The notes under the pieces are model-generated. The model made no database searches. It saw nothing but the letters and a program-made list of their open reading frames with translations, and was not told where the DNA came from. Positions 2,822 through 64,000 of a DNA stretch of 64,000 nucleotides are shown here, piece after piece. Origin of the DNA: Desulfobacter vibrioformis DSM 8776 (lineage in GTDB: Bacteria > Desulfobacterota > Desulfobacteria > Desulfobacterales > Desulfobacteraceae); contig NZ_KN050796.1 of assembly GCF_000745975.1 (NCBI RefSeq), positions 1 through 64,000 of the forward strand, read 5' to 3'. The translations under genes were made by a program, and so were the position numbers. The stretch's first letter is position 1; each line of letters starts with the position of its first letter.

Positions 2822-4197
2822 ATCCCAAGCTCCTTTTTTGCCGCATCCACGGCCGCGGATACGTTGTCAAATCCGGTTCCACCATAGGAGTTGCGCCGGG
2901 CGACCATGGCATCCAAACTGATGAATTTATAAACATCCTTTTCAATAAGATTGCTGAAGGAACGCATCTCTTCCAAAGTTAAATCATCCAGTTCTTTTTT
3001 TTCTTCCAGGGCAAAGGCCACGGCTTTTCCCGCAATGCCATGGGCTGTTCTGAAGGCAACGCCCTTGTTGACCAGATAATCGGCAAAATCCGTTGCATTC
3101 AAAAAACCTGTCATGCAGGCCGTGCGCATCCGGTCCTTATGCACCTCAATATGTGCCAGCATGCGGGTGTACACCTCAAGGCAGATTTTTAAGGTGTCTA
3201 TGGTATCGAACAAAGGCTCCTTGTCTTCCTGCATGTCCTTGTTATATGCCATGGGCAAGGATTTCATGGTGGTTAAAATGGCCATGAGATTGCCTACCAC
3301 GCGCCCTGTTTTACCCCTGACAAGTTCGCACACATCCGGATTTTTCTTCTGGGGCATGATGGAAGAGCCTGTGGTAAAGGCATCGGAAATAGTGATAAAC
3401 GCAAATTCCGATGTGGACCATAAAATCAACTCCTCGGACAACCGGGACAGATGAATCATGCAGATGGACGCATGGGAAATAAATTCCATGACAAAATCAC
3501 GATCTGACACAGAGTCCATGGAGTTGTCCGATACCCGGGAAAAGCCCAGGACCTGACAGGTATATTCCCGGTCAATGGGAAAGGAAGTACCGGCCAGGGC
3601 TGCCGTGCCCAGGGGCATCACATCCAGGCGTTTCAGGGAATCCTCCAGTCGTTCCACATCCCGCTTGAACATCTGAAAGTATGCCAGCATGTGGTGGGCG
3701 AACAATACGGGCTGGGCCCGCTGCATATGGGTATATCCGGGCATCACTGTTTTTCTGTTGGCATCGGCAAGGGTCACCAGGGCCGCCTGAAAATCTTTAA
3801 GCATTTGGATAAGGTTTAAGGTCTCTTCCTTGAGATAAATGCGTACATCCAGAGCCACCTGATCATTACGGCTTCTGCCCGTATGCAGTTTTCTGGCCAC
3901 AGGTCCACAAACCTGGCCTAAATTTTCCTCCACATGCATGTGGATGTCTTCCAGAGCGTCGGTGAATACCATTTCATCATTATCAATTCTGGATTTTACC
4001 GTATCCAGCCCCTCCACCAGGGTTTCAGCATCTTCTGATGAGATAATCCCCTGTTTTGCCATCATTTCAAGGTGGGCCTGGCTACCTTTTATGTCGCTCT
4101 CATAGAGGCGTTTATCCACGTTTATGGACGCATTAAAAGACTCCACCAGTTTATCCGTGGATTCGGCAAACCGGCCCCCCCATAATTTTTCACTCAT
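2818..4197 (-). CDS. argH: Argininosuccinate lyase
   Basis: Cleaves argininosuccinate to arginine and fumarate, the last step of arginine synthesis. The fumarase/aspartase superfamily signature GSSIMPQKKNPD is intact, as are LWGGRF at the N-terminus, HTGRSRNDQ and GYTHMQRAQP. The length, 459 residues, is normal. It follows argF by 33 bases and is translationally coupled to the downstream lipoprotein by an ATGA overlap. Together with argB, argD and argF it forms a partial arginine cluster; argG, argC and argJ are not in the window. Confidence 0.98.
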   Translation of the reverse strand: MSEKLWGGRFAESTDKLVESFNASINVDKRLYESDIKGSQAHLEMMAKQGIISSEDAETLVEGLDTVKSRIDNDEMVFTDALEDIHMHVEENLGQVCGPVARKLHTGRSRNDQVALDVRIYLKEETLNLIQMLKDFQAALVTLADANRKTVMPGYTHMQRAQPVLFAHHMLAYFQMFKRDVERLEDSLKRLDVMPLGTAALAGTSFPIDREYTCQVLGFSRVSDNSMDSVSDRDFVMEFISHASICMIHLSRLSEELILWSTSEFAFITISDAFTTGSSIMPQKKNPDVCELVRGKTGRVVGNLMAILTTMKSLPMAYNKDMQEDKEPLFDTIDTLKICLEVYTRMLAHIEVHKDRMRTACMTGFLNATDFADYLVNKGVAFRTAHGIAGKAVAFALEEKKELDDLTLEEMRSFSNLIEKDVYKFISLDAMVARRNSYGGTGFDNVSAAVDAAKKELGI

Positions 4198-4230
4198 TAT
4201 TTTTTTCCCTATGTAGTTCCCCGCTTGGGC

Positions 4231-5151
4231 CTAATCTCGCCCTAAAATCAAGCGCTCCAGAATGGCTTTGTGCATGTGCCGCTTGTTTTCCGCCTGATCC
4301 CAGAACGCCGCGTTTTGCGCTTCAAGTACAGATTCGGCAATCTCCTCACCCCTGTGGGCGGGCAGACAGTGAAGCACCAGACAATCATCCTTGGCGCTTT
4401 TGAGCAGCTCCTCATTGACCTGGAATCCTTTGAACGCCTTAAGCCGGCCTTCAAGCTGATCTTCCTCACCCATGCTGGCCCAGACATCGGTATACACAAC
4501 ATCGGCGCCTTTAATAGCCTCTTTGGGATCATTGGTGAACACAATATTCTCTTTTGTGTCTGCCCCGGCCGCAGCAATGATCTCAGGATTGATATGGTGG
4601 TTGTCCGGACAGGCCACGATCAGGTCCAGCCCCAGCACGGATGCGGCATTGACCCAGGAATTGGCCACATTATTACCGTCTCCCACCCAGGCGATTCTGA
4701 CATCCTCATACCCGCCTTTATGTTCAATCACGGTCATGATGTCGCTTAAAATCTGGCACGGGTGAAACGCGTCTGTCAGGGCGTTGATCACCGGGATCGT
4801 GGCGCTTTGGGCAAACGCTTCCACCAGATCGTGGTCAAAGGTTCTCATGGCCAGGCAGTCAATATACCGGGATAAAACCCGGGCCGTATCCTTTGCCGGC
4901 TCATTTCTGGATATCTGGGTATCCTGGGTGCTCATATATATGGAATGTCCGCCCAGCTGAATCATGGCCGTTTCAAATGCGATGCGGGTCCGGGTGGATT
5001 TCTTATCAAAAATAAGGCCCAGGGTTTTGCCGGCCAGAAGGGAATCGAAGATGCCCTTTTTGTGGCGCGCCTTCAGGCTTAGCGCCCTTTCAAACAGGGT
5101 TGTAAAATCCTGGGGTTCAAGGTCCAGTAAACACAGTAAATCCTTTTTCAA
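4231..5151 (-). CDS. argF: Ornithine carbamoyltransferase
   Basis: Makes citrulline from ornithine and carbamoyl phosphate. The carbamoyl-phosphate loop KSTRTRIAFE, the HPCQILSD motif, and the ornithine-binding HCLPAHRGEE near the C-terminus are all present in 306 residues, the normal length. Its start overlaps the argD stop by 4 bases, so the two are co-translated. Confidence 0.97.
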   Translation of the reverse strand: MKKDLLCLLDLEPQDFTTLFERALSLKARHKKGIFDSLLAGKTLGLIFDKKSTRTRIAFETAMIQLGGHSIYMSTQDTQISRNEPAKDTARVLSRYIDCLAMRTFDHDLVEAFAQSATIPVINALTDAFHPCQILSDIMTVIEHKGGYEDVRIAWVGDGNNVANSWVNAASVLGLDLIVACPDNHHINPEIIAAAGADTKENIVFTNDPKEAIKGADVVYTDVWASMGEEDQLEGRLKAFKGFQVNEELLKSAKDDCLVLHCLPAHRGEEIAESVLEAQNAAFWDQAENKRHMHKAILERLILGRD

Positions 5152-6344
5152 TGATCGTCTCCTGCAAGCAGGCTGTCCAGTTCGGCAACCAGCTGATTAA
5201 TTTCGACGGTCCCTATAATCAAGGGCGGTGCAAATCTAAGAACTTTATCTTGAATCGCATTAATAATAAAGCCTTTTTTGAAACATTCAGACACGTAATC
5301 TGTGGCTGTTTTGCCCTTGGAAATATCAAGCTCCATGCCGATAAGCAGCCCTTTACCCCTGACATCCACCACTTTCTTATGCTTTTCTTTTAACCCATTG
5401 AGCTGGGCCAGAAAATAAGCGCTTTTTTCACGAACAGATGCCAAAAACCCTTGTTCAGATATCAAACGAACCACCTCAAGGGCTGCGGCCGTGGCAAGGG
5501 GGGTGCCGCCAAAGGTTGAGCCGTGGCTGCCAACTTCAAATCCCAGGGCAGCTTCTTCGCTGGCCAGCATGGCGCCGATGGGAACCCCATTGGCCAGGGC
5601 CTTGGCAAGGGTCATGATGTCAGGTACAACATCATAGGATTCATGGGCGAATAATGTACCGCAACGGCCCATGCCGGTCTGGATTTCATCAAAAATCAGC
5701 AGGGTGCCGGTGTCCGTGCAAAGCTGCCTTACAGCCTTGATATATTCGGGATCAGCAGGGATGACCCCGCCCTCACCCTGGACAGGTTCCATCATCACCG
5801 CACACACCGTACCATCCATGACAGCTTTCAGGGCCTCAATATCATTGAAGGGCACATGGATAAAACCGTCCAGCAGGGGGAAAAACCCCTTTTTGATTTT
5901 ATCCTGGCCCGTGGCAGACAGCGTGGCCATGGTCCGTCCGTGAAAGCTTTGCTGCATGGTGACAATCTTGAACCTGCCGGCTTCCCCTTTTGCCTGGAAA
6001 AACCGCCGGGCAAGTTTGATGGCAGCCTCGTTGGCCTCTGCACCTGAATTGGCAAAAAACACGCGGTCGGCAAAGGATTTTTCAGTCAGAACCTTTGCAA
6101 GCTCTGCCTGGGGCCTTGTGTAAAACAGATTGGACACATGCACCAAAGTGCCTGCCTGGGCAGAGATGGCTGCGGTGATATCCGGATGGCAATGCCCCAG
6201 GTTGCATACGGCAATGCCGGCCAGAAAATCGGTATATACATTGCCCTGATCATCATAAAGTTGGGTGCCCCGTCCTTTGACAAAGGGCCGCCCCTGGCGC
6301 GCATAGGTCTTAAACACATGATCCTGGGTCAGTTGAATTGTCAT
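5148..6344 (-). CDS. argD: Acetylornithine aminotransferase
   Basis: A class III PLP-dependent aminotransferase that converts N-acetylglutamate semialdehyde to N-acetylornithine. Visible motifs are NSGAEANEAAIKLAR, SFHGRT, LIFDEIQTGMGR and the PLP lysine in MTLAKALANGVPIGA. At 398 residues it has the usual length. It lies 14 bases after argB and overlaps argF. Some ArgD enzymes also act as succinyldiaminopimelate aminotransferase; this cannot be judged here. Confidence 0.96.
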   Translation of the reverse strand: MTIQLTQDHVFKTYARQGRPFVKGRGTQLYDDQGNVYTDFLAGIAVCNLGHCHPDITAAISAQAGTLVHVSNLFYTRPQAELAKVLTEKSFADRVFFANSGAEANEAAIKLARRFFQAKGEAGRFKIVTMQQSFHGRTMATLSATGQDKIKKGFFPLLDGFIHVPFNDIEALKAVMDGTVCAVMMEPVQGEGGVIPADPEYIKAVRQLCTDTGTLLIFDEIQTGMGRCGTLFAHESYDVVPDIMTLAKALANGVPIGAMLASEEAALGFEVGSHGSTFGGTPLATAAALEVVRLISEQGFLASVREKSAYFLAQLNGLKEKHKKVVDVRGKGLLIGMELDISKGKTATDYVSECFKKGFIINAIQDKVLRFAPPLIIGTVEINQLVAELDSLLAGDDH

Positions 6345-6358
6345 TTTATATTTCCTTC

Positions 6359-7246
6359 TTATTTAGAATCTCCGGCAAAGAGCTGGGTGCCGATCCCTGA
6401 GTCGGTAAACAGCTCAAGCAAAACAGCATGGGCAATTTTTCCGTTAATGATATGGGCTTTTTGAACGCCGGCGTTCAAGGCGGAAAGCCCGCATTCCACC
6501 TTTGGAATCATGCCCCCTGAAATCCGGTTGTCCCGGATCATCTCCCGGGCCTGGTGCTCATTCACTGAGGAGATCAGTGTCTTGTCACTGTCCAGCACCC
6601 CATCCACGTCCGTGACAAGGATAAGGCGCTCGGCATTCAGGGCACAAGCAATTTTTGCCGCCACCACATCTGCATTAATATTGTATGTTTCCCCTTTGGT
6701 GCCCACCCCCACCGGCGCAATAATAGGGATAAAGCCCCGGGCGCTCAGGGTGTGAATGATCTCGGGATTTACCCTGGACACATCCCCCACCATGCCCGGA
6801 TCAATGATCTCAGGCGGTTTGGTTTCATCTTCCTGGTGATAAATGGTCATTTTTTCGGCCAGAATCAATCCTGCATCCTTGCCCGTAAGTCCCACGGCCC
6901 GTCCGCCCTCCATGTTGATCCGGGACACCACATCCTTATTCACCTTGCCGCCTAAAACCATTTCCACCACATCCATGGTGGCATCGTCCGTGTACCGCAT
7001 TCCTTTGATAAAGGTGGATGTGATCCCCATGGCTTTGAGTACCTCATTGATCTGGGGACCGCCGCCATGGACCACCACCGGATTGACCCCGATAGTCTTA
7101 AGTAAGATGATATCCTTGGAAAAATTGGTTTTCAGATCCTCATCCACCATGGCGTGTCCGCCATACTTGATCACCACTGTTTTTCCGGAAAATTTCTGTA
7201 TATAGGGCAATGCCTCTATCAATATGTCTGCAACCGTATTTTTCAT
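6359..7246 (-). CDS. argB: Acetylglutamate kinase
   Basis: Phosphorylates N-acetylglutamate, usually the arginine-controlled step. It shows the amino-acid kinase fold: [28 protein letters not shown], a substrate region with [25 protein letters not shown], and [13 protein letters not shown]. Length is 295 residues. The N-terminal helix ([15 protein letters not shown]) resembles that of the hexameric, arginine-inhibited enzymes, so feedback inhibition is likely. It overlaps the hslU stop by 4 bases, so arginine synthesis genes are coupled to a protease operon. Confidence 0.97.
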
Positions 7247-58243: not shown

Positions 58244-58273
58244 GGGTATTAAACCCTTTATTGCTCTTTTTTC
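58235..58273. terminator. Bidirectional terminator between converging genes
   Basis: AAGGGT (58242-58247) pairs with ACCCTT (58253-58258). On the minus strand the stem is followed by ATTTTTT; on the plus strand by TTATTGCTCTTTTTT. It spans the ends of the helicase gene and the acidic-protein gene, which lie 14 bases apart. Confidence 0.7.
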
Positions 58274-58944
58274 TTTTCCCAGAAATCACGGCTTTCCTGA
58301 AGAATGGCATTGATATCGTCATCCTCCATATCCTGGTCAGTCTCCTTGTCCCCGTCTTCCAGGCCATCAATATCCGGCAATTCCCCAGCACTTAAGTCTT
58401 CTTTTTCTATGTCATCCTCTTGGGCCTGGGGGAAATCGCCAATCACTTCATCATCTATATCTGCTTCAAGGATATCTGGGTCGTCCGGATCAAATTCAAA
58501 TTCATCTTCAAGATCTTCAATTTCCAGTCTGAGCTCAACATCCTGGATATCATCATCTTGGATATCATCATCCAGGTCTTCCGCGGGCTTCTCATCTGGT
58601 TCATCATCATAATCCGGAAGGTTAATGGACAGAGGATCCTCCCGGTCTGATGCTGCGGCTTCTTTATCCTGCGGGTCCTGTTCCGGTGTCGTAGGTTCAC
58701 AATCTTTAAGCAGGTTGCCGTTCCGGTCAAAAAGCAGGCTGCCATCCAGATTGATTTCATAATCAAGCCTGAATGCTACATCATTGTTATGTACGACAAT
58801 CTGGCCACCTTTGGGAGACAGAGCCTTAATTGTCAGGCGTTCCTTGAACAGATCCCTGACTGCATCAAGATCCAGATCTTTCTGGACCGATGCAATAAGG
58901 TCTTTTTCACCGTTCAGTATGACTTTGGGATCTGTAATTCTCAT
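58258..58944 (-). CDS. Extremely acidic protein of unknown function
   Basis: Residues 1-80 form a small mixed domain (DPKVILNGEKDLIASVQKDL; LTIKALSPKGGQIVVHN; FRLDYEINLDGSLLFDRNG). From about 85 to 215 the protein is dominated by D and E with few other residues, including a repeat of DDIQ (DDDIQDDDIQD). The C-terminus is SRDFWEKKKEQ. No family recognised. AAGGAG lies 6 bases before the ATG, so it is probably translated. The acidic stretch could bind a basic partner, mimic DNA, or be a flexible linker. Confidence 0.7.
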   Translation of the reverse strand: MRITDPKVILNGEKDLIASVQKDLDLDAVRDLFKERLTIKALSPKGGQIVVHNNDVAFRLDYEINLDGSLLFDRNGNLLKDCEPTTPEQDPQDKEAAASDREDPLSINLPDYDDEPDEKPAEDLDDDIQDDDIQDVELRLEIEDLEDEFEFDPDDPDILEADIDDEVIGDFPQAQEDDIEKEDLSAGELPDIDGLEDGDKETDQDMEDDDINAILQESRDFWEKKKEQ

Positions 58945-59024: not shown

Positions 59025-60398
59025 TTATCGATTGAATGCAATGTTCGCAAAACTAGGTTCAATAAAGTTTTCAAGGTCAATGATTTTGCCGATTTCCATG
59101 GTATCATGCATGTATCTTTGAATTTTATCAAGAGCGTCTGCATCCGGATAGAGTCCATCCCAGCGTATGGCCATGGGCTGGGAAAATACATTTTGAAGCA
59201 CCTGGGGATTCAGCCCCATTTTACCTTCGGGGTCCAGAAATTTTACACCAATATCCGCGGCCCGGGTCTTGTCGTTTTCAATATACTCGCCGGTTTCCAC
59301 CAGTAGGGATACAAACTCCTGGACAGCATCGGGATGTTTCTGGATAAAGTCTTTTTGCATGGCCACAATACAGCAGGGATGATTTTCCCAGCGTGCGGCT
59401 GAATAGAATTCCAGGCTGCCGATCCCCCCTTTTATGGCTTTGGTTGCAACCGGTTCTGCAACCATGAATCCGCCCACGTCCTCGTTTTCTTTCATAATGC
59501 CGGGCATCTTGATGGGCGGAACCACTTCAAAGCGTACATTAATGGCTTTTTCTCCGGGAACACCGGGTTTGAGCCCCAGTTCCTTTAAAAATTTATGTGC
59601 AAGCATGTGGTGAACCGACATTTTGTGGGGAATATCCACAACCTTGTATTTGTAAAAGCTTTGCAAAGAGTCAAACCTGTGATCATAATGCCGGGAGCGC
59701 ACAAATGTGGAACCGTTCTTGTGGGCAAACAGGACCAGTTGAATGGGGGAGTCATAGGCAAAAAGATCCATGGCAATGGGGGCCAGAACAAAAGCGCAGT
59801 CGATTTCCCCGCTTTCAAGACCTTCCTGTATGGGGTTCCATCCACCCATCAGGCTGGTTGACAGGTCAAAGTACCTAGGTTCCACATCCCCTTGGTTAAT
59901 CCGGTGTTTCAGGGCACCCAGGGCAAGGTGGTCGGTGATCTGGATGTGGGCCACATTGAGCTCAACGCGGCCTCCGATAAAGCCCCGCTCTTTTGTTACC
60001 CGCTGTTTTTTCATTCCTCCGGAAAAAGCCGCTTCAATCGCGTTGACTATTTCCTCCTCATTAAAGGGCTTGGGGCAATGGGCATTGCCGCCGGCTTCCA
60101 GAATTTCTTTCTGCCTGCCCATGTCAGCCTGGGCCGTGGCCATGATGAAAGGCAGGTCCTTAAATTCTTCCAGTTCCCGTAAGTGTTTAAGAAATCTAAG
60201 GCCATCCAGCGTGGGCATGTTCCAGTCAGATATGACAAGATCAGGTTTTTCAGCTTTCACTTTTTCAATGCCGTCTGCACCGTTCACCGCCATGACAAGA
60301 TTTGAAAATCCGGCTTTCCCCAGGATTTGTTTGAACATTATCCGCATGGTGCCTGAATCATCTGCCACAACAATTTTAATATTCGGGTCTACCGCCAT
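59025..60398 (-). CDS. CheY-like receiver fused to an NrtA/SsuA-type substrate-binding domain
   Basis: 457 residues. Residues 6-128 are a receiver close to CheY: Asp13/Asp14, Asp58 in ISDWNMPTLDG (the same DWNMP as E. coli CheY), Thr88 in MATAQ and Lys110 in CPKPF. Residues about 145-457 match the nitrate/sulfonate substrate-binding family: VAHIQITDHLALGAL, VDIPHKMSVHHMLAHKFL, MVAEPVATKAI and WENHPCCIVAMQKDF, the last nearly identical to the exported protein of the same operon. There is no signal peptide or membrane helix, so both parts should be cytoplasmic. Probably a regulator reporting internal ligand, or uptake status. Last gene of the operon, 57 bases after the permease. Confidence 0.9.
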   Translation of the reverse strand: MAVDPNIKIVVADDSGTMRIMFKQILGKAGFSNLVMAVNGADGIEKVKAEKPDLVISDWNMPTLDGLRFLKHLRELEEFKDLPFIMATAQADMGRQKEILEAGGNAHCPKPFNEEEIVNAIEAAFSGGMKKQRVTKERGFIGGRVELNVAHIQITDHLALGALKHRINQGDVEPRYFDLSTSLMGGWNPIQEGLESGEIDCAFVLAPIAMDLFAYDSPIQLVLFAHKNGSTFVRSRHYDHRFDSLQSFYKYKVVDIPHKMSVHHMLAHKFLKELGLKPGVPGEKAINVRFEVVPPIKMPGIMKENEDVGGFMVAEPVATKAIKGGIGSLEFYSAARWENHPCCIVAMQKDFIQKHPDAVQEFVSLLVETGEYIENDKTRAADIGVKFLDPEGKMGLNPQVLQNVFSQPMAIRWDGLYPDADALDKIQRYMHDTMEIGKIIDLENFIEPSFANIAFNR

Positions 60399-60455
60399 AA
60401 ACTGCTCCTTATGTCCTGTAAAGGTGTTACATATAAAAAATCAAAAATTATGTGC

Positions 60456-61316
60456 TTAAACATCATTGGCCCATGACCAGTTGAACCGGTGCTGCAATTT
60501 CTGGAAAACTCTGTCGAGCATAAATCCCAGTATGCCGATGGCAATTATTAGGGCCATAAGTTTATCGTACTCCATGGTATCCCTGGCATCGTTAATCAGA
60601 TAGCCCAGGCCTGATGATACCCCTAAAAACTCTGCCGGAACCAAAACAATCCATGCAATCCCCAGTGCCAGCCTGATGCTGGTCATCATATGGGGAATGG
60701 AATATGGAATAATAATCGTCTGAATGAGTTGGACGTTATTGGCCCCCTGGTTTAAAGCCATTTTTATCCACTGGGGATTAATGTCCATGACACCAATGGC
60801 TGTGTTCAGTATTATAGGACAAATCGTTGCCATTACAATTAAAAAATAAACAGCGGATTCAAAGCTGGTAAATAAAAGCAGTGCAATGGGCATCCAGGAC
60901 AGGGGGCTGATCATTCTTACGAATTGAATCGGCGAATGCGTCAGCTTGCGAAGACGTGTAAAAAAACCGATAAGAACGCCCAGGGGAAGCCCGATGGCCG
61001 CTGATATGGCGACGCCCACAGCAATTCTTCGCAGGCTTGCAAAAACCGACACCCAGAATCTGGGATTCTGAAACGCGTCTGTCAGAGCCGCCAGGGTGGG
61101 GCCGGGCAGAAATCCTTTAAAATAGGACAATCCGGGCCGGGTGAAAATGAACTGTGTCACAACTGCCCAGGCGCAGACAGACAGGATAAGTCCGGCCAGT
61201 TCATATTTCCAGCCCGACCATGCCCGGGTTAAAAATGGTGACAATCCGACCAGATCAGACCTGTTGTGGATCTTTTTTTCAGTTGATTTCAATGGTTTCT
61301 TCCCGGGCCAATGCAT
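60456..61316 (-). CDS. ABC transporter permease, nitrate/sulfonate/taurine type
   Basis: About six membrane helices in 286 residues, first near LAGLILSVCAWAVVTQF. The ATPase-contact EAA loop is visible in INPQWIKMALNQGANNVQLIQTIIIPYSIPHMMTSIRLA (given by its parts: ALNQGAN, IPYSIPHM). This is the BPD_transp_1 type of NrtB/SsuC/TauC. The start overlaps the end of the binding-protein gene by 38 bases; a later start is possible. It should form the channel with the ATPase at 62471-63247. Confidence 0.92.
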   Translation of the reverse strand: MHWPGKKPLKSTEKKIHNRSDLVGLSPFLTRAWSGWKYELAGLILSVCAWAVVTQFIFTRPGLSYFKGFLPGPTLAALTDAFQNPRFWVSVFASLRRIAVGVAISAAIGLPLGVLIGFFTRLRKLTHSPIQFVRMISPLSWMPIALLLFTSFESAVYFLIVMATICPIILNTAIGVMDINPQWIKMALNQGANNVQLIQTIIIPYSIPHMMTSIRLALGIAWIVLVPAEFLGVSSGLGYLINDARDTMEYDKLMALIIAIGILGFMLDRVFQKLQHRFNWSWANDV

Positions 61317-62481
61317 CTTTCATGTCGCACTGGCAGAATGCTTTTATGCCTCCCATGTCGTCAAGGGCCTTTCTGACAAAACGGTCGTCCACAAGTTGTG
61401 CAACCGCTGTGTTTGTATCAAGGGGGGTCAGAAAATCCGTGTTGCCCTCGACTTTGGTTTTTTTCATTTGTTCCAGAATAAACCGGGTGGCTGATGGATA
61501 AGGAAACGGCTGGAACCCGATTCTTTCGACATTCCACTGGGGATGTACCAGTTCTTTTTCGGGAATCGAACCAAAAACCCGGTTCAGGACGGATTCATTT
61601 ACCGGCAGAAATCCTTCACCCTCCCTGCTGAGCAGGTGGGCGGTTTCCCTGGGATTCTGCAGGCACCACGCCTGGGCGCGCACAATGGCGTTTACCGCCT
61701 TTTGGATCATGGCTTGATTTTGCAGGATCAGATCGTCTTTGACCACGATAACACAACAGGGATGATTTTTCCAAATATCTCCTGAATATCGCATTATTTT
61801 TGCTGAAAATTTTTCCTGGGCCAGGGCGTTGAAGGGGTCTGCCACGATAAATGCGTCTATTTTCTTACCCAAAAGCGCCTGGGGCATATCCGGAGGCGGC
61901 AGGATAAACAGGTTCACCTCGTGGGGGGCAAGCTTTGAGCCCGGCGGACGGATTACAGGTTCAAGCCCCTGGGCCTGAAGGCCTAACTGCATGACCAGAT
62001 TGTGCATGGAATACCATGAGGGAACAGCCACCTGTTTACCGGAAAGATCCGCAAACCGGTTGATGCCGGAGTCTGCTTTGACAGTGACCGCACTGCCGTT
62101 GGTATGATCCCAGGCCAGGACCTTGACAGGTATGTTCTGCTTGAATCGCATCCATACGGGGATGGGGAAGAGCATGTGGACCAGGTCAAATTTCCCCGTT
62201 AAAAAGGATTCAGTGAGTAAATTCCATGAACGCACCATGACCGGGCGTTCCACATGAAGTCCTTCATGGGAAAAATAGCCCAGACTGTATGCAACAAGCA
62301 GGGGTGTGGCATCTGTAATGGGCAGATACCCTATTTTTAACGGCCTTTTGTTTGCCGCTGCCAGGCACGGAAATGCCATGGGGGTGCAGGCGGCCGCACC
62401 TGCCGTCTGTATTATCGTTTTTAAAAATTTTCGCCGTGAAATGCCGTTGGGGCATGTCGGCCTAGCATGGTTAAATTCCAT
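61279..62481 (-). CDS. Tat-exported substrate-binding protein, NrtA/SsuA-type
   Basis: The N-terminus has a twin-arginine signal, ISRRKFLKTIIQTAGAAA, followed by a cleavage-like FPCLAAAN, so the protein is exported folded. The mature part shows KIGYLPITDATPLLVAYSLGYF, LTGKFDLVHMLFPIPV, KQVAVPSWYSMHNLVMQLGL and WKNHPCCVIVVKDDLI, as in the CmpA/NrtA group. A Tat substrate can carry a cofactor. 400 residues. Ligand unknown: nitrate, sulfonate or another anion. It overlaps the ATPase gene by 11 bases. Confidence 0.92.
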   Translation of the reverse strand: MEFNHARPTCPNGISRRKFLKTIIQTAGAAACTPMAFPCLAAANKRPLKIGYLPITDATPLLVAYSLGYFSHEGLHVERPVMVRSWNLLTESFLTGKFDLVHMLFPIPVWMRFKQNIPVKVLAWDHTNGSAVTVKADSGINRFADLSGKQVAVPSWYSMHNLVMQLGLQAQGLEPVIRPPGSKLAPHEVNLFILPPPDMPQALLGKKIDAFIVADPFNALAQEKFSAKIMRYSGDIWKNHPCCVIVVKDDLILQNQAMIQKAVNAIVRAQAWCLQNPRETAHLLSREGEGFLPVNESVLNRVFGSIPEKELVHPQWNVERIGFQPFPYPSATRFILEQMKKTKVEGNTDFLTPLDTNTAVAQLVDDRFVRKALDDMGGIKAFCQCDMKDALAREETIEIN

Positions 62482-63247
62482 CCGTCAGGCTCCGTTTGAC
62501 TAAATATGCGATTTTAAACCGATGGAGAATATCGGTTCTCAGGGTTTTGATCACAGGATCATTCTGGTTTCGGGGATAGGGGACATCAATATCGAAAATA
62601 TCAGAGATGCCGGCAGGAGAACCTGCCAGAACCACAATTTTATTTCCAAGCCGTATGGCTTCATCAATATCGTGGGTGACAAAGACTGAGGTAAAATTTT
62701 CCGACATCCACAGGTTTACCAGTTCCTCCTGGATATGGGCCTGGGTAAAGGTGTCCAAAGAGGCAAAGGGTTCGTCAAGCAGCAGAACCTGGGGACGTCC
62801 CACCAGTGCCCTGGCCAGGCAAACCCGCTGGGCCATGCCCAGGGAGAGCTGGCCGGGTTTCACGTCAGCCGCACCTGCCAGCCCCATGATTTCCAGAAAC
62901 TGGCTTACCCGGTATTCCAGATCCTGGGTATCTTTTCTGATTTTACAGCCATAGGCCACGTTTTTCTTAACGCTGAGCCAGGGGATCAGGGCCGGCTGCT
63001 GGAACATCATGGAACGCGACGGGTGGATGCCGGTAATGGGGTCGCCGTTCACCCGGATTTGACCGCTGGTCGGATTTTCAAGCCCTGCCAGCATGTTCAG
63101 CAGGGTGGTTTTTCCGCAACCCGACTCCCCCAGAATAATCACAAAATCTCCCGGATTTATGGAAAATGAAATATCCTTGAGAACCTGGTGGTGTTTTTTT
63201 CCCGGTCCGTCGTAGGATTTGCAGATTTTTTCAATATCTATTTTCAA
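62471..63247 (-). CDS. ABC transporter ATP-binding protein, SsuB/TauB/NrtD type
   Basis: Walker A GESGCGKTTLLNMLAGL, Q-loop MMFQQPALIPWLSV, signature LSLGMAQRVCLARAL (SLGMA in place of the usual SGGQ), Walker B LLLDEPFASLD and the switch histidine in VFVTHDIDEAI. 258 residues. It starts at a TTG, 3 bases after the stop of the gene upstream. The changed signature glycine is worth noting. Confidence 0.93.
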   Translation of the reverse strand: MKIDIEKICKSYDGPGKKHHQVLKDISFSINPGDFVIILGESGCGKTTLLNMLAGLENPTSGQIRVNGDPITGIHPSRSMMFQQPALIPWLSVKKNVAYGCKIRKDTQDLEYRVSQFLEIMGLAGAADVKPGQLSLGMAQRVCLARALVGRPQVLLLDEPFASLDTFTQAHIQEELVNLWMSENFTSVFVTHDIDEAIRLGNKIVVLAGSPAGISDIFDIDVPYPRNQNDPVIKTLRTDILHRFKIAYLVKRSLTDGI

Positions 63248-63250
63248 GTG

Positions 63251-64000
63251 CTATATTTCCGACAGAGCAGTATGAACAAAGTCCGGTTTGATAAATCCAT
63301 TAAGGTCTGTGCCGGCCGGCATGACCTTCATGGTTGTGCGCATATAATCAAGCACGATGTTTAAAATTTCCATATCCGGAACCAGAAGTTTGGGGCAATA
63401 GGTTATCCCCGATGTTTTAAGTGCCCTTTGCGTCTGCCCGGCAGACAGGCCTAAAAAAGAGGCTGACATGCTTTCAATCTCCTTTGCGGCAGTGTCCGGG
63501 GATGACATATACCGGTCAAGCTGTTGGGCACTGTCAAGAAGGCAGCTGACCATCAGGGCCAAACTTTCCCTTTTGGTCCTGAGCAGATCCTGGTGTACCA
63601 CGAATACGGAACCCGGATGAACCTTCCACAGGTCCCGGGAAATGAGCAGACGTTTGAATCTTTTTTTCTCAATCCCGGCGTCACCAAAGGGGGCAGGGCA
63701 GATAAAAGCGGCAATATCGCCGTCAGGGTCCGAATCTGCCATTTCCGGCATCAGTTCACACGGAACCGCTTCAATGCCGACGCCTTCTTCCGATCTCCCC
63801 GGATAGGAAATTTTCAACTTTCCTGCATTCAGAAGCCTGTGAACAAGCATATGCTGAATACTAAGTCTGTGGGGGATCAACATACTTTTTCCCCTGAGGT
63901 CTGCCAATCTTTGGATTTGTTCAGGTACAATGATTCTGCTGCCGGCCCTGTGGGTGAACATGAGCATGGAAATGGCCAGTCCCTTGTCAAACAGATACAT
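63251..64000 (-). CDS. Second NrtA-like binding-domain protein, cut by the window edge
   Basis: The visible 249 residues line up with the C-terminal part of the CheY-fusion protein: LIPHRLSIQHMLVHRLL against PHKMSVHHMLAHKFL, DLWKVHPGSVFVVHQDLL against WENHPCCIVAMQKDFI, and the ends LNGFIKPDF against LENFIEPSF. The ATG at the window edge aligns with residue 210 of the fusion protein (MDLFAYDSP), not with a true N-terminus, so at least 65 residues, and possibly a receiver or kinase domain, lie beyond the window. First visible gene of the ABC operon. Confidence 0.8.
   Translation of the reverse strand: MYLFDKGLAISMLMFTHRAGSRIIVPEQIQRLADLRGKSMLIPHRLSIQHMLVHRLLNAGKLKISYPGRSEEGVGIEAVPCELMPEMADSDPDGDIAAFICPAPFGDAGIEKKRFKRLLISRDLWKVHPGSVFVVHQDLLRTKRESLALMVSCLLDSAQQLDRYMSSPDTAAKEIESMSASFLGLSAGQTQRALKTSGITYCPKLLVPDMEILNIVLDYMRTTMKVMPAGTDLNGFIKPDFVHTALSEI

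Follow-up and report, generated by a model that had tools for sequence, protein, structure and literature searches.

A predicted soluble fusion of a receiver and an NMT1-type substrate-binding domain with genomic links to chemotaxis and to an ABC importer

The window, by which we mean the whole analysed stretch of DNA of 64,000 nucleotides from a sulfate-reducing bacterium, encodes a soluble single protein that consists of an intact receiver domain followed by a complete NMT1-type substrate-binding domain, termed here the RR-SBD fusion. We propose, with a probability of roughly 0.6, that this fusion is a two-input chemosensory protein responding to both phosphorylation and a cytoplasmic ligand, and that it acts in a CheV-like manner in those forms that also carry a CheW domain. 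A role in chemotaxis is probable because many relatives of the fusion are joined to chemotaxis proteins; the fusion probably helps cells to direct their movement according to the substances that they have imported. It counts against the chemosensory reading that the window protein has no CheW domain and sits in a transporter operon. The gene and its recognizable elements are the following:

59025..60398, minus strand: RR-SBD fusion gene, an open reading frame with an ATG start, 457 aa
60033..60374, minus strand: receiver domain, residues 9-122 (Pfam Response_reg), with Asp14, Asp58, Thr88 and Lys110
59028..59969, minus strand: substrate-binding domain, residues ~144-457 (Pfam NMT1_2 at residues 169-380; fold match 3un6)
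59370..59381, minus strand: HPCC motif, residues 340-343, part of a conserved His/Cys-rich set
60405..60410, minus strand: AAGGAG, a Shine-Dalgarno-like element six bases 5' of the fusion ATG, read from the sequence

The domain search that an earlier note on this DNA had recommended detects both Pfam families in one open reading frame, Response_reg with E 7e-24 and NMT1_2 with E 8e-24 (85.2 bits against a gathering score of 24.7), and these scores lie so far above the cut-offs that a chance match is excluded. The receiver residues named in that note are correct, as Asp14, Asp58, Thr88 and Lys110 show no variation among 43 sequences or among the 68 proteins of the set described below; position 13 is Asp or Glu in 36 aligned rows. 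The structure prediction recommended there gives a confident AlphaFold2 model based on 36 sequences, with a mean pLDDT of 90.6 and a pTM of 0.87. No export signal or membrane helix was found in the fusion by inspection of its N-terminus, which is occupied by the receiver, by a hydropathy scan or by Pfam, and its peak 19-residue hydropathy is 1.35, versus 2.4 for the neighbouring permease. The fusion is thus predicted to lack the export signal that characterizes the periplasmic binding proteins of ABC transporters, and the cytoplasmic location assigned to its binding domain is upheld. The receiver was also said to be unusually close to flagellar CheY: CheY is indeed its best match among both NCBIfam models and PDB entries (E 8e-21) and the conserved Asp, Asp, Thr and Lys are shared, but the closeness is moderate, as the 75.7 bits obtained lie below the CheY cut-off of 189, and the 457-residue fusion is no single-domain protein.

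An uninterrupted fusion with an identity of at least 67% is present in 59 of the 86 genomes of the same GTDB family. A stop and a start near residue 130 in relatives, which would have betrayed two genes joined by a sequencing or assembly error, were sought and not borne out; since the fusion is unbroken in these 59 genomes, it is no assembly joint, and we rejected an assembly or annotation artefact. A 60th carrier, genome G009, has the two parts of the fusion on two contigs, the first part being at a contig end. The genome count asked for previously therefore comes to 60 of 86 in the family (18 of 19 in the genus) and to 48 of 192 in the class, the latter at E<=1e-100, a threshold at which the receiver and the binding domain are matched together. 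The nearest relatives among the matches listed come from a Desulfobacter sp. (94%), D. latus (93%) and D. postgatei (91%), which makes Desulfobacter the most likely genus of this DNA. A scan of named genomes gave at least 79 loci, from which 12 were dropped as incomplete (L165, L166) or receiver-only (L168-L177); the remaining 67, with receiver and binding domain in one frame, were drawn from the matches listed and form, together with the window protein, a set of 68 proteins whose counts are no census. Most of the listed fusion loci are titled Desulfobacterales or related groups, and single metagenome assemblies with the fusion are titled Spirochaetes (L121), KSB1 (L131), Bacteroidetes (L162) and Melioribacter (L163), titles that rest on binning.

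The 68 proteins, as drawn from the matches listed, contain 11 Pfam families in total. Response_reg and NMT1_2 occur in all of them, and CheW, invariably at the C-terminus of the receiver-binding domain module, in 32; the rarer partners are HATPase_c (2), HATPase_c_2 (2), HisKA (1), DUF3369 (1), SpoIIE (1) and STAS (1). Pfam analysis of nine selected fusion proteins, run together with a neighbouring tRNA synthetase as the tenth protein, resolved the order receiver-binding domain-CheW in L063, L067, L069 and L074, a module placed on a CheA core (H-kinase_dim, HATPase_c and CheW) in L061, a module preceded by a histidine kinase in L066, and a module with HATPase_c_2 and STAS in L095. The remaining two, assigned by Pfam, carry two tandem modules followed by CheW:

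L060:4968-8567, single protein: tandem double receiver-binding domain protein with CheW
L071:4790-8407, single protein: tandem double receiver-binding domain protein with CheW

The L095 gene for the module-HATPase_c_2-STAS protein (3716-5935) adjoins a receiver-SpoIIE gene at 5932-7194, and the same sensor is apparently used there in a partner-switching pathway. At another locus (L076:2051-3448, minus strand), a separate receiver of 123 aa and then a separate binding domain of 312 aa are encoded upstream of a fused RR-SBD gene; this pair is an unfused version of the fusion.

In a tree of the binding domains, built by a quick method with a midpoint root from 121 of 135 rows after removal of identical ones, all 96 receiver-fused rows fall on one side of a single branch (SH-aLRT 100), which fits a single origin of the fusion. 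The window protein belongs to a CheW-less clade of 39 rows (support 98), within which a clade of 24 rows (support 99) comprises the importer-linked copies and two copies from che clusters.

The importer-linked copies are exemplified by the window, where the fusion gene closes an operon with the order signal-less NMT1_2 protein, ABC ATPase, exported Tat-like NMT1_2 protein, permease and fusion. The start codon of the first operon gene is uncertain, with no in-frame ATG upstream of its domain. The genes that surround the fusion are the following:

63251..64000 and on beyond the window end (L001:5252-6139 plus upstream sequence), minus strand: signal-less second NMT1_2 protein (Pfam), the first operon gene
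62471..63247, minus strand: ABC ATPase of the importer (Pfam), with SaoA and ntrCD as best NCBIfam models, both below cut-off
61279..62481, minus strand: exported NMT1_2 binding protein (Pfam) with a Tat-like SRRKFLK start, the signal type being judged by eye
60456..61316, minus strand: ABC permease (Pfam BPD_transp_1), upstream of the fusion with a 57-base gap
58258..58944, minus strand: gene X, 228 aa, downstream of the fusion, with an N-terminal domain of ~80 aa, an acidic linker and a conserved C-terminal SRxFW motif

The closest paralogues of the window fusion outside the importer operon all lie in che clusters (L081/L113, L080 and L269). In Desulfobacter latus (L081/L113), the gene sits between two CheA-like kinases and has a four-base overlap with a hybrid kinase gene; in genome G057 (L080), its neighbours encode CheB and CheD, the latter assigned by Pfam; both of these are second fusion copies, and both clusters are without the importer. 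The cluster in genome G052 (L269) contains two CheA, CheR and CheB nearby, recognized by similarity to Pfam-confirmed proteins, as well as CheD and CheX (Pfam) and a stand-alone binding domain. CheW-bearing copies are located beside CheA, CheR and CheB (L072), beside CheA (L098) or directly after a Cache-type MCP (L137 and L144), and the CheA-core fusion of L061 has an MCP and a CheW protein as neighbours. Among ten neighbours chosen for their chemotaxis promise, six proved to be Che proteins or MCPs and four were other (PAS kinases in L151 and L067, a DNA methylase in L067 and a protein of no family in L069); a control set of ten, taken regardless of che genes from around seven further CheW-bearing copies, contained no Che protein and included two HDOD and two rhodanese proteins, FeoB, hemerythrin and others. 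Outside Desulfobacter, 11 of 14 distinct importer loci have a divergent cheD gene no more than 580 bases away from the first gene of the operon, the exceptions being L079, L108 and L272, whereas none of five Desulfobacter loci has cheD beside the importer operon; these counts cover loci whose flank spans 1.5 kb or more, and all 11 CheD proteins are confirmed by Pfam.

The distribution of the fusion follows that of CheA as detected by PF02895, a family that misses some CheA proteins according to the available part of PMC10782961. CheA is detected in 72 of the 86 family genomes, and the fusion occurs in 60 of these 72 versus none of the other 14 (Fisher p 2e-9, kinship ignored), 13 of which also lack CheW; at the class level, the corresponding counts are 48 of 141 versus 0 of 51 (Fisher p 3e-8, kinship again ignored). 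When kinship is taken into account through a LepA species tree of 76 of the 86 genomes (LepA was below threshold in 10), four independent pairs remain and the sign test is not significant (median p 0.25, range 0.125-0.5); in the pairs where the fusion differs, it always goes with CheA. The association is consistent, not proven. Together with the CheW and CheA fusions, the che-cluster paralogues and the flanking cheD genes of other genera, the restriction to genomes with detected CheA upholds the link to chemotaxis that the earlier note had raised.

A homologue of the downstream gene X is found at 31 of 61 loci with CheW-less fusions versus none of 44 with CheW-bearing ones. Its product has no Pfam family and no significant relative in the PDB by profile search (best E 0.48), and its model is poor (pLDDT 61, pTM 0.26). 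The acidic tail and terminal helix may resemble the CheY-binding ends of CheZ or FliM. Two copies of gene X are present in 28 of the 35 family genomes of the sample in which a close copy was also seen in six genomes without the fusion (G036, G041, G048, G053, G061 and G073), and we rejected, as a strict claim, that gene X is an obligate partner of the fusion, given these six genomes.

The binding domain has the NMT1_2 binding-protein fold, as judged from a Pfam score above the gathering score and a matching fold. Its top Foldseek match is 3un6 (TM of 0.90, target-normalized), which is also its best sequence match (E 1e-15); CmpC, NrtC and the CmpC regulatory domain on its own rank next, narrowly ahead of TauA, NrtA, SsuA and CmpA. 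The 3un6 entry is a binding protein of Staphylococcus aureus whose structure was determined with zinc, an ABC import component by its title, and in the alignment it keeps the CC pair and the IPHxxSxH stretch of the binding domain. In window numbering and with near-duplicate loci included among the rows, Trp187, His226, Gly229, Ser230, Pro257, Ser261, Pro316, Trp337 and His340-Pro-Cys-Cys343 are present in 108 of 108 receiver-fused rows, and the same set is found in all seven stand-alone cytoplasmic domains and all 21 exported Tat-type binding proteins; His263 is kept in 107 of 108, 7 of 7 and 21 of 21 rows, respectively. His151, His157 and His258 are likewise kept throughout the 108 receiver-fused rows, but the exported proteins have other residues at these positions. 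On the structural model, we infer that the conserved residues line the binding pocket. The pocket set common to the fusion and the exported protein suggests that both bind one kind of ligand, the former within the cell and the latter outside it. The signal-less protein encoded by the first operon gene departs from this pattern: in Desulfobacter, HPCC is kept in none of six rows, with HPGS instead, and Glu315 is changed to Ala in all six, so that its pocket appears to be degenerate; outside this genus, the two Cys are kept in 7 of 14 rows. Another signal-less binding domain with HPCC, standing alone and 38% identical to that of the fusion, is encoded next to ispD at L059:6272-7219 (G000:C4:38298-39206), and its relatives adjoin RR-SBD genes (L076, L078, L082 and L087) or sit in a che cluster (L269).

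The identity of the ligand was approached through the NCBIfam models. The ligands suggested in the earlier note (nitrate, sulfonates, taurine and thiocyanate) gained no specific support; the sulfonate, taurine and SaoX binding-protein models all score far below their cut-offs, for instance 58 bits versus 163.5 for the SsuA aliphatic sulfonate model TIGR01728 and 30.5 versus 300 for SaoX. The importer ATPase and permease are nearest to the Sao and nitrate models, again below cut-off, with SaoA as the best match of the ATPase and SaoP as that of the permease. The Sao proteins form a Sec-assisted organometallic system, as described in the available part of PMC13188914. The likeness of our system to SaoX/SaoA/SaoP thus consists of best matches for ATPase and permease and weak SaoX matches for the binding domains, but all scores lie far below the curated cut-offs. 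The conserved His/Cys-rich set would also suit a metal-type ligand, and a thiophilic metal or organometal may be taken as a lead only.

We infer the phosphorylation, ligand binding, kinase identity and output of the fusion to be as follows. The exported binding protein would capture a solute outside the cell, and the importer encoded in the same operon would carry it into the cytoplasm, where the binding domain of the fusion, with nearly the same conserved pocket residues, would close on this solute or on a closely related one. A CheA-type kinase, for which the genome offers five H-kinase_dim hits as candidates, would phosphorylate the receiver at Asp58, and ligand and phosphorylation would jointly set how the fusion engages the chemosensory machinery, by which movement would be tuned to the internal level of the imported solute. 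The CheW-bearing relatives would dock into the receptor array via CheW, as in CheV, and the CheW-less clade of the window protein may engage through another surface or partner. To the fullest form of this proposal we would give even odds: that the receiver-binding domain-(CheW) proteins are a class that plugs a cytoplasmic binding fold into CheA arrays, letting cells direct their movement by how much of an imported solute they contain, and that in Desulfobacteraceae a CheW-less branch ends its own importer operon, so that uptake is coupled to taxis and one ligand is read both outside and inside the cell. Binding proteins feed chemoreceptors from outside the cell; if the proposal is true, this widespread family would tie taxis directly, at the molecular scale, to the intracellular concentration of a metabolite, and CheV-like adaptors would gain a ligand input of their own. 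It raises the testable question of whether the internal level of a transported solute alters CheA output without a receptor-bound ligand, and offers a testable hypothesis for a gene carried by most genomes of the family.

The main rival to the chemosensory reading in our analysis is control of the importer itself, whereby the fusion would bind the importer ATPase or permease and slow uptake at high internal ligand by trans-inhibition, as in NrtC and CmpC, with phosphorylation as a second control and with no chemotaxis in this clade. Such gating of the neighbouring transporter, as the earlier note proposed, draws its sole support from operon membership: all five operon genes occur together in 20 rows representing 18 distinct loci, with the fusion last, and the exported binding protein of the importer (E<=1e-60) is encoded in 62 of the 86 family genomes, including all 60 fusion carriers. 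The two genomes with this protein but without the fusion are both cut at contig ends. In 56 of the 60 carriers, fusion and binding protein share a contig; they lie on different contigs in G010, G033 and G080 and also in G052, where the fusion in its che cluster and the importer on another contig argue against a gate, as do the importer-less che-cluster copies of D. latus and G057 and the cheD genes that flank most operons outside Desulfobacter. No importer homologue was found at the fetched locus for 36 CheW-less and 43 CheW-bearing of 105 fusion ORFs, some of these loci being short or cut. On the other hand, the CheW-bearing fusion of L069 is directly followed by a homologous ABC ATPase, 55% identical, which points to a link with the transporter even in this case, and in fold the binding domain is, after 3un6, most like CmpC and NrtC. 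Removal of the CmpC regulatory domain activated a half-transporter design of BCT1 but not the unmodified transporter, according to the available part of PMC11349869. We regard the gate as rather unlikely.

A cytoplasmic binding-protein fold joined to a receiver beside an importer could instead serve gene regulation, as in NasS-NasT, where a cytoplasmic NrtA-like sensor sequesters a receiver protein with an ANTAR output. A fused analogue that controls importer expression is very improbable, since Pfam detects neither ANTAR nor any other DNA- or RNA-binding family in the window protein or its relatives in the set of 68. The lowest place among the alternatives goes to a passive part, in which only the receiver matters as a phosphate sink, or the protein merely buffers a ligand inside the cell, and the other domain is vestigial; we regard this as about equally improbable. 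The available part of PMC8396549 mentions CheV and additional CheY proteins as potential phosphate sinks, but the receiver active site and the binding-domain residues are both invariant over the 68 proteins, unlike the decayed pocket encoded by the first operon gene in Desulfobacter.

No report of the receiver-NMT1_2 architecture, with its CheW and CheA fusions, and no mention of PF13379 or NMT1_2 in connection with it were found among the papers listed from the open-access literature searched; the terms NMT1, SBP and substrate-binding do not occur in the available part of PMC10782961, nor does NasS in PMC6514139. The precedent of NasS-NasT lowers the novelty of the principle, as there too a cytoplasmic NrtA-like sensor works with a receiver protein; however, that system consists of two proteins with an ANTAR output, whereas the fusion is one protein in which no nucleic-acid-binding domain was found. 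A cyanobacterial parallel with separate parts may be seen on a Pseudanabaena plasmid (L274, 2599-8195), where a sensor kinase, a response regulator, an NrtA-type binding protein, a permease and an ATPase are encoded by neighbouring genes beside cyanase. The parallel to NrtC that the earlier note drew holds, given the fold matches to CmpC and NrtC: in both cases an NrtA-like binding fold in the cytoplasm is tied to an importer, but in NrtC and CmpC this regulatory domain is fused to the ATPase, whereas here it is joined to a receiver, with the ATPase encoded by a gene of its own. CheV, like the CheW-bearing relatives, is a soluble protein of receiver and CheW, but the relatives have the reverse order, with the receiver first and CheW last, and a whole binding domain in between; by Pfam, the window protein itself is without CheW, which is found in 32 of the 68 proteins of the set. 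Tight binding of a CheV phosphorylation mimic to one chemoreceptor, but not to another, is described in the available part of PMC12691637. By analogy, the fusion would work like a CheV with a ligand input of its own, or like the NrtC regulatory domain transferred to a receiver, while being a member of neither group.
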